A stretch of DNA of 39,550 bases from an uncultured Dehalococcoidia bacterium (GTDB lineage: Bacteria > Chloroflexota > Dehalococcoidia > Lucifugimonadales > Lucifugimonadaceae), in NCBI GenBank assembly GCA_913052475.1, contig CAJXEJ010000020.1:1-39550 (forward strand), read 5' to 3'. Of this stretch, positions 17,179-19,840 are shown in pieces. Under the pieces are notes generated by a model that worked only from the letters and a program-made list of their open reading frames with translations, searched no databases and was not told where the DNA came from. The first letter of the stretch is position 1; each line of letters starts with the position of its first letter. Position numbers and translations under genes: made by a program.

Positions 17179-17649
17179 CTACAACCGGTCGATTTCGTGG
17201 AGTAGCTCGATCGCGGCCGGAATCGAATCGGTGTAGACGTTCGACCAGCGGATCATACCCTCGCCATCAACTATGAAAACCGACCGCTTCGAAATTCCGC
17301 GGCTCTCGTTGAACACGTCATACGCTTTCGACACCTCACCATGCGGCCAAAAATCGCTAGCAATCGGAAACGGAACACCGCACTCACCCTTGTATTCACC
17401 CAGACTCTCAGCCCACGCCTTCTGAACAGCTACTTGATCGCAGCTGATCTCGATAACTTCGGTGTTTCGAGTTTGGAATTCATCGTAGTTTGCGCGGAAC
17501 CCGCGCACCTGATTCTGTCAGCCACCGGTGAAGCTTGCAGGATGAAAGGCAATCACGACCTTTTTACCGCGTAGGTCGGAAAGTATTACAGTGCCGGAGT
17601 GTGAACTAAGTGCGAAATCTGGTGCCTGGGCGCCGGTTCTAAGTGCCAT
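17179..17649 (-). CDS. AhpE-like peroxiredoxin with in-frame TGA (predicted selenocysteine U44)
   Basis: Read through one TGA, the reverse strand from the ATG at 17649 encodes 156 residues closely resembling mycobacterial AhpE (153 residues). The N-terminus is GAQAPDFALSSHSG, then VVIAFHPASFTGG-U-QNQVRGF, then PFPIASDFWPHGEVSKAYDV and FNESRGISKRSVFIVDGEG. AhpE has FTGIC at the same place, with C45 the peroxidatic cysteine; here codon 44 (17520-17518) is TGA instead of TGC or TGT. Everything before and after is in one frame with no other defect, and a hairpin that fits a bacterial SECIS element follows directly. The Thr three residues before U44 (T41) and the DFWPHG segment are kept. The most economical reading is a selenocysteine peroxiredoxin reducing peroxides in the cytoplasm. 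An inactivated gene is the alternative. Standard callers will report only 109 residues from 17508. Confidence 0.85.
17491..17507 (-). promoter_or_regulatory. Candidate bacterial SECIS element
   Basis: In the mRNA, ten bases after the UGA, UGCGCGG pairs perfectly with CCGCGCA around a GUU loop. The apical loop lies 17 bases after the UGA and starts with G. This meets the published bSECIS rules (loop 16-37 nt after UGA, loop of 3-14 nt, G among its first two bases). The hairpin lies within the coding region, as bacterial elements do. Confidence 0.75.
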
Positions 17650-19465: not shown

Positions 19466-19840
19466 TTACTCCAATGTTGCCTGATAGCTGGCTGCGTCCA
19501 TCAACTCGTCGAGCTGCGCGGTATCCGAGAGTTCGACCTTGATCAGCCAGCCGACACCATAGGGCTCGGCATTGACCGACTCAGGATTGTCGACGGCTTT
19601 GGAATTGACCTCGATGATCTTGCCTCCAACCGGTGAAAACAGATCGCTTACCGCTTTCACCGACTCGATTTCACCGAACTTCGCGTGCTGTATAACGTCG
19701 GTACCAGCTTCCGGAAGATCAACGAACACGACATCACCGAGGGATTCTTGTGCAAACATGGTCACGCCCACTTCAGCGACTTTCCCGTTCATCCGCACCC
19801 ATGTGTGTGTTTTTGAATATTGGAGATCGCCCGGATACAT
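19466..19840 (-). CDS. gcvH: Glycine cleavage system H protein
   Basis: 124 residues, full length and uninterrupted. The lipoyl domain has the attachment lysine K62 in GEIESVKAVSDLFSPV, with the hammerhead features HTWVRMNGKVAEVGVT at the start and PYGVGWLIKVEL near the end. GcvH carries aminomethyl groups on lipoate between P and T proteins. Its partners on both sides, gcvT upstream and gcvPA downstream, are fragments, so either other copies exist in the genome or GcvH is kept for another job such as lipoate transfer to 2-oxoacid dehydrogenases. GGAA lies twelve bases before the ATG. Operon order gcvT-gcvH-gcvPA on the reverse strand is the classic one. Confidence 0.93.
   Translation of the reverse strand: MYPGDLQYSKTHTWVRMNGKVAEVGVTMFAQESLGDVVFVDLPEAGTDVIQHAKFGEIESVKAVSDLFSPVGGKIIEVNSKAVDNPESVNAEPYGVGWLIKVELSDTAQLDELMDAASYQATLE

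Follow-up and report, generated by a model that had tools for sequence, protein, structure and literature searches.

Peroxiredoxins of the AhpE subfamily are dimers that are reduced by mycothiol/mycoredoxin or by thioredoxin. Peroxiredoxins with selenocysteine (Sec) in a TxxU motif are already established, so the gene described here adds to a known kind. In the portions of the literature available to us, the Sec Prx family is listed with a biochemical reference (Sohling et al. 2001) in a 2026 review (PMC13188914), which calls the PxxxTxxU motif highly conserved, and TxxU "Prx" selenoprotein sequences are reported from the Sargasso metagenome (43 sequences, PMC1088965) and the GOS metagenome (253 sequences, PMC2398784). 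As given in the same portion of the review, a bacterial SECIS element (bSECIS) lies 16-37 nt from the UGA and has a loop of 3-9 nt with a G in the first two loop positions, an upper stem of 4-16 bp, and an MFE of -7.5 or lower. Parts of two further papers report that 3 selenoproteins were counted in Chloroflexi in 2006 (PMC1794560) and that bins of sponge symbionts from various phyla contain SelA and SelB (PMC5649159).

The gene studied here comes from an uncultured Dehalococcoidia bacterium, and by the window we mean the whole stretch of 39,550 nucleotides that was analysed. The bacterium belongs to an order (Lucifugimonadales) that may correspond to SAR202. The original prediction was that an AhpE-like reading frame in the window is open except for a TGA exactly at the peroxidatic cysteine, that a hairpin follows this TGA, and that the gene encodes a selenoprotein. 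The features of the locus are as follows:

17179..17649, minus strand: gene for a predicted Sec-containing AhpE-like peroxiredoxin, 156 codons when UGA is translated as Sec, terminated by TAG
17518..17520, minus strand: codon 44 (UGA), where selenocysteine is predicted, at the peroxidatic site of PxxxTxxC; TGA in 107/118 and TGC/TGT in 11/118 homologues at the same column
17491..17507, minus strand: predicted bSECIS upper stem-loop, UGCGCGG - GUU - CCGCGCA, 17 nt between UGA and loop
17179..17508, minus strand: 109-codon ORF starting with GTG, left if the TGA is a stop

We believe, with a probability of about 0.96, that the product of this gene is an AhpE-type peroxiredoxin with one selenocysteine, which is inserted at codon 44 by means of SelA, SelB, SelD and the stem-loop. 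The observations below concern the sequence, the position of the UGA, conservation, RNA structure statistics, the presence of the machinery, and fold prediction, and they support the selenoprotein interpretation first given to the gene.

With TGA translated as U, the gene yields a protein of 156 residues; its one TGA is codon 44, in the context FHPASFTGG-U-QNQ, where U44 closes the stretch P37-A-S-F-T41-G-G-U44, which has the form P37xxxT41xxU44. The Pfam AhpC-TSA profile (PF00578) matches the protein at 118.5 bits (cut-off 26), and this match, the PxxxTxxC/U site and the catalytic Arg (P37, T41, U44, R122) place it among the peroxiredoxins. The closest solved relatives by sequence are M. tuberculosis AhpE chains (E-values from 1.2e-27 to 1.6e-25), in which FTGIC is aligned with FTGGU. 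An AlphaFold2 model based on an alignment of 39 sequences has a pLDDT of 96.0 and a pTM of 0.91, and the first 11 PDB matches of the predicted structure are all M. tuberculosis AhpE, with TM scores of 0.90-0.91 by query length, so the best PDB matches by sequence and by fold both assign the protein to the AhpE subfamily. The translation, the profile match and the FTGIC/FTGGU alignment confirm that the TGA-interrupted AhpE-like gene is real and that its frame is otherwise open; the 109-codon GTG ORF is what remains when the TGA is taken as a stop.

The hairpin is exactly as first described, beginning ten nt past the UGA with a 7-bp stem (UGCGCGG/CCGCGCA) and a GUU loop. Its energy is -11.1 kcal/mol (centroid -11.9), and with a 3-nt loop, a 7-bp stem and a 17-nt distance it falls within the bSECIS limits on loop length, stem length, position of the G, spacing and energy in the consulted part of PMC13188914. 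Taken alone, the hairpin region is only mildly unusual: compared with dinucleotide shuffles its z-scores at three lengths are -1.20, -0.81 and -1.81, and the hairpin has a rank of 0.03 among synonymous recodings. The argument that a random stop would rarely carry such a hairpin is therefore weak when made from the hairpin by itself, and it is the comparative data that carry the case: given that 107 of 118 homologues have TGA at this column and that folding after the TGA is in excess across the set, the arrangement is more than chance.

A protein match was found in 146 of 147 genomes drawn from the order, and among the matches listed with E-values below 1e-25, each has one TGA except for five from one genus (G023, G057, G073, G085, G098). 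From the order we analysed 30 loci and 80 more picked from the matches listed, roughly the next best by E-value, with lower-scoring matches left out. Of 41 loci from named relatives, 8 are in the 118-locus alignment, 11 more are in the tree or the wider comparison, and 22 were left out; two of the loci, L037 and L076, are one and the same stretch. The named relatives at 66-72% identity are Chloroflexi/Dehalococcoidia MAGs. In the 118 aligned homologues, the catalytic column holds TGA in 107, including 100 genomes of the order (this one among them) and five named contigs, and a Cys codon (TGC or TGT) in 11. The exchange between U and C that would be expected of a selenoprotein family is thus seen, and the in-frame UGA aligns with the Cys of homologues, as in known bacterial selenoproteins. 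Stops and frameshifts scattered through the gene in relatives, which would have pointed to decay, were not seen: there is no in-frame stop elsewhere inside the gene in the 118 homologues, and any other TGA in the aligned loci is at segment positions 0-2 or at 155 and beyond, which are the gene ends.

Sec forms also occur beyond the order, in Planctomycetota, in a deltaproteobacterial MAG and elsewhere in the phylum. Six distant Sec homologues (L042, L043, L044, L045, L046, L068), from Planctomycetota, the deltaproteobacterial MAG and unassigned MAGs, have the site DFTPTU in five cases and DFDPTU in L043. In seven further loci of the phylum (L185-L191), a simple motif located the site in three (L185, L186, L191), with U in each. 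A search of plasmids returned 365 records, all below 60% identity, and these were set aside.

For the folding tests, duplicates, short rows and rows with N were removed, which kept 102 of the 107 Sec rows and all 11 Cys rows. Free energies were ranked against GC-matched synonymous recodings, where a rank of 0.05 or lower is expected for 5.1 of 102 Sec and 0.6 of 11 Cys rows. This rank was reached by 26/102 Sec and 1/11 Cys rows for nt 0-45 after the UGA, by 29/102 and 0/11 for nt 9-42, and by 57/102 and 0/11 for nt 9-48; the counts of sequences are not independent because the homologues are related. We also applied a strict rule, under which a hairpin needs a G at loop position 1 or 2 and a perfect stem of at least 4 bp. 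The strict hairpin was in the best 5% of synonymous recodings in 29/102 Sec and 0/11 Cys rows, was absent from 39/102 Sec and 8/11 Cys rows, and reached -7.5 kcal/mol in only 24/102 Sec and 0/11 Cys rows.

Covariation in the stem, proposed earlier as a check, was found in part. Within the genus of the window the stem is invariant, and L095, from another family, keeps all 7 pairs with 3 of them changed on both sides; these compensatory changes come from a single sequence, which was added to the comparison because its stem looked alike and on which covariation in this group rests. We also studied a group of 48 sequences, selected by a pattern in the peptide out of 95 distinct Sec sequences that do not belong to the window's own group. 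RNAalifold found no consensus structure for this group, and the pairs were counted on a structure derived from how two members (L113 and L099) fold, which biases the count toward the structure tested. With that bias, 72.2% of cells are paired, compared with 36.8-50.2% when the structure is slid. A longer stem, columns 15-21 with 45-51, has 83.9% of cells paired, and the inner stem 55.8%. The covariation score of 0.202 exceeds both that of shuffles (0.130) and that of slid structures (0.157 or less). Two of the five measures were not clearly above shuffles, namely pairs changed on both sides (equalled or exceeded by 361 of 500 shuffles) and further pair types (by 36 of 500), and the 38 cells changed on both sides were not above the 40 obtained with a slide of +3. 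Our reading is that the position and presence of the RNA element are selected and that its exact shape varies by lineage.

The same genome, an assembly of 2.13 Mb in 86 contigs that is 90.6% complete, contains all four components of the Sec system that the original prediction proposed to look for, each over its curated cut-off: selA (504 bits, cut-off 267.9), selB (290.1 bits, cut-off 242.25), selD (365.8 bits, cut-off 125) and tRNA-Sec (RF01852, 67.7 bits, cut-off 47), the last also called by ARAGORN as tRNA-SeC (tca). For SelB, 326 residues are visible before the end of contig C26, so that its RNA-binding C-terminus is out of view. The selD gene carries its own in-frame TGA in the context LATCAGUAGK, presumably the usual Sec site of SelD. 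This gene and two further TGA genes of the thioredoxin-like superfamily in the same genome count in favor of reading the TGA as Sec. Across the order, selA is over the cut-off in 128 of 147 genomes. It is found in 91 of 100 genomes with a Sec locus and in 37 of 47 others, a co-occurrence that is not significant (Fisher p=0.062), with most genomes of the order having selA and with "no Sec locus" meaning none among the extracted loci, which may be wrong for some genomes. The 9 of 100 Sec-locus genomes that have no selA over the cut-off have listed completeness of 70-91%; they include G080, in which a fragment of selA is present.

Several other genes in this genome were noted along the way. A second likely Sec peroxiredoxin (L002 170-657, contig C58) is BCP/PrxQ-like, matches AhpC-TSA, and has its TGA at DFTRGU45. 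A thioredoxin-like gene (L006 1501-2979, contig C83), also with an AhpC-TSA match, has a TGA in WTYCUINC and, past it, a 7-bp perfect hairpin (CUUCCGC-AGUU-GCGGAAG); its protein then has a possible beta-propeller part, with weak matches below cut-off. In the window, an apparent N-terminal piece of the glycine cleavage P-protein (a gcvPA remnant, 19453 to ~19000, minus strand) matches PF02347 positions 3-97 of 429 and ends with TAA. Similar-looking sequence continues past the TAA in other frames, and the remnant adjoins an intact gcvH (19466-19840).

Gene decay does occur in this DNA, given that the gcvPA remnant about 1.5 kb away, with its TAA and apparent frame slips, appears to be a true relic, so a Cys codon could have become a stop in this one genome, either in a pseudogene or through a sequencing or assembly error. 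Against this, the same TGA is in the same column in nearly all of the homologues, across the genomes of the order and the named contigs, there is no stop elsewhere inside the gene, and 12 columns are invariant in 39 homologue sequences, so the protein is under clear constraint. We reject decay or error as extremely improbable, since the conserved TGA refutes it in the main. Reassignment of TGA genome-wide to Trp or another residue would likewise keep the frame open, and we consider it no more credible. TGA is used as a normal stop, the 19 long window ORFs that were taken as genes ending in TGA (5), TAG (8) or TAA (6); the 11 homologues that do not have TGA have Cys at the column, and none has Trp; and the Sec system is present in the genome.

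It is also conceivable that the UGA is a real regulatory stop, with a 43-residue peptide made before it and a C-terminal protein started independently, or with a selenium-dependent switch between truncated and full forms, and the 109-codon ORF does begin with GTG at the fourth codon past the UGA. However, the C-terminal piece would not include P37, T41 or residue 44 and could not work as a peroxiredoxin, and the 11 aligned Cys homologues read through the column uninterrupted. For these reasons we rejected a regulatory stop as well, giving it marginally more weight than the two explanations above but still very little. We therefore retain insertion of Sec at codon 44 as the explanation of the gene.

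Based on established knowledge of selenoproteins and peroxiredoxins, we infer the insertion of Sec, the peroxidase activity, the roles of residues and the kind of reductant. SelD would provide selenophosphate and SelA would convert Ser-tRNA-Sec to Sec-tRNA-Sec, while SelB would bind the stem-loop just 3' of the UGA and deliver Sec at codon 44, so that translation would not terminate there. Once the enzyme has folded, T41 and R122 (with P37) would activate the peroxide, the selenolate of U44 would attack it, as in a 1-Cys-type (here 1-Sec) peroxidase, and the resulting selenenic acid would be reduced by an outside thiol. R122 is found in 112/112 Sec rows and T41 in 111/112. The motif proline P37, which the window gene retains, is found in 39/112 and replaced in 73/112, of which 69 have V or I. 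The sequences share no second conserved Cys, the commonest being C70 in 55/112 Sec rows, which fits the 1-Cys type, and for this reason an external thiol would be needed to close the catalytic cycle. Immediately upstream of tRNA-Sec in the same genome lies a gene for a 109-residue protein with WCGPC; we read this protein as a thioredoxin and possible reductant, which is only suggestive.

In a tree of 128 rows (112 Sec and 16 Cys), 4 changes between U and C are needed, compared with a mean of 15.3 for shuffled labels, and at least three of the four are forced by well-supported branches; the tree was built quickly, is rooted at its midpoint and contains several long branches. One genus (g32, in family f24) has five Cys sequences (L100, L106, L108, L117, L130), which are nested among the 83 Sec rows of an 88-row group with SH-aLRT support of 95. 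They have no strict hairpin after the codon, and selA is over the cut-off in 4 of their 5 genomes. From its sequences, this clade is best read as a reversion from Sec to Cys. In the part of the 2006 survey available to us (PMC1794560), 12 Sec Prx and five Cys-to-Sec events are listed, and no Sec-to-Cys events. We think it reasonably likely that these uncultured Chloroflexota have had the Sec form of AhpE since the origin of their order or for a very long time, that this form tolerates loss of the motif proline, and that one genus reverted to Cys with loss of the SECIS element while mostly keeping selA. The presence of a Sec locus in 100 of 147 genomes, among the loci extracted, and the prevalence of selA noted above support an old Sec form.

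Within one order of uncultured bacteria, the predicted Sec AhpE-like peroxiredoxin is found unusually often. Searching open-licence PMC text, we found nothing on SAR202 selenoproteins or on SAR202 Chloroflexi peroxiredoxins, and no description of the frequency of the gene in this Chloroflexota order, of the reversal from Sec to Cys, or of motif-proline loss on the scale seen here. The terms "Chloroflex" and "AhpC" are absent from the main texts of PMC1088965 and PMC2398784, and "Chloroflex", "AhpE" and "Dehalococcoid" from the main text of PMC13188914. Because such genes can be called as truncated throughout the order, standard annotation may miss both the defence of these bacteria against peroxide and their need for selenium. 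With its dense sampling, the set also amounts to a natural experiment, in which a folding signal accompanies Sec and none is seen after reversion to Cys, and Sec peroxiredoxins that have lost the motif proline bear on the role of that proline.

Compared with described systems, the window gene shares its family and the TxxU motif with the marine metagenomic "Prx" family, which, in the parts of PMC1088965 and PMC2398784 available to us, is not assigned to this lineage; judged by description and not by sequence, the marine set may well include relatives of the window gene. As far as it is described in the partial sources available to us, PrxU of Eubacterium acidaminophilum is alike in being a PF00578 protein with a TxxU motif whose peroxidatic residue is Sec. 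It differs in that the window protein scores 85.6 bits against the NCBIfam model NF040737, which we take to represent the Eubacterium PrxU protein and which has a cut-off of 270, so the window protein falls outside that model. The mycothiol/mycoredoxin partner of AhpE is not expected for the window protein. M. tuberculosis AhpE (PDB 1xxu, 1xvw, 4x0x, 5id2) resembles the window protein in its fold as predicted, in a similar length, in 35-36% identity over the structural alignment, in the FTGxC/U site, in the catalytic Arg, and in having no conserved resolving Cys, and differs from it in that the window gene has a Sec codon where AhpE has its peroxidatic Cys.
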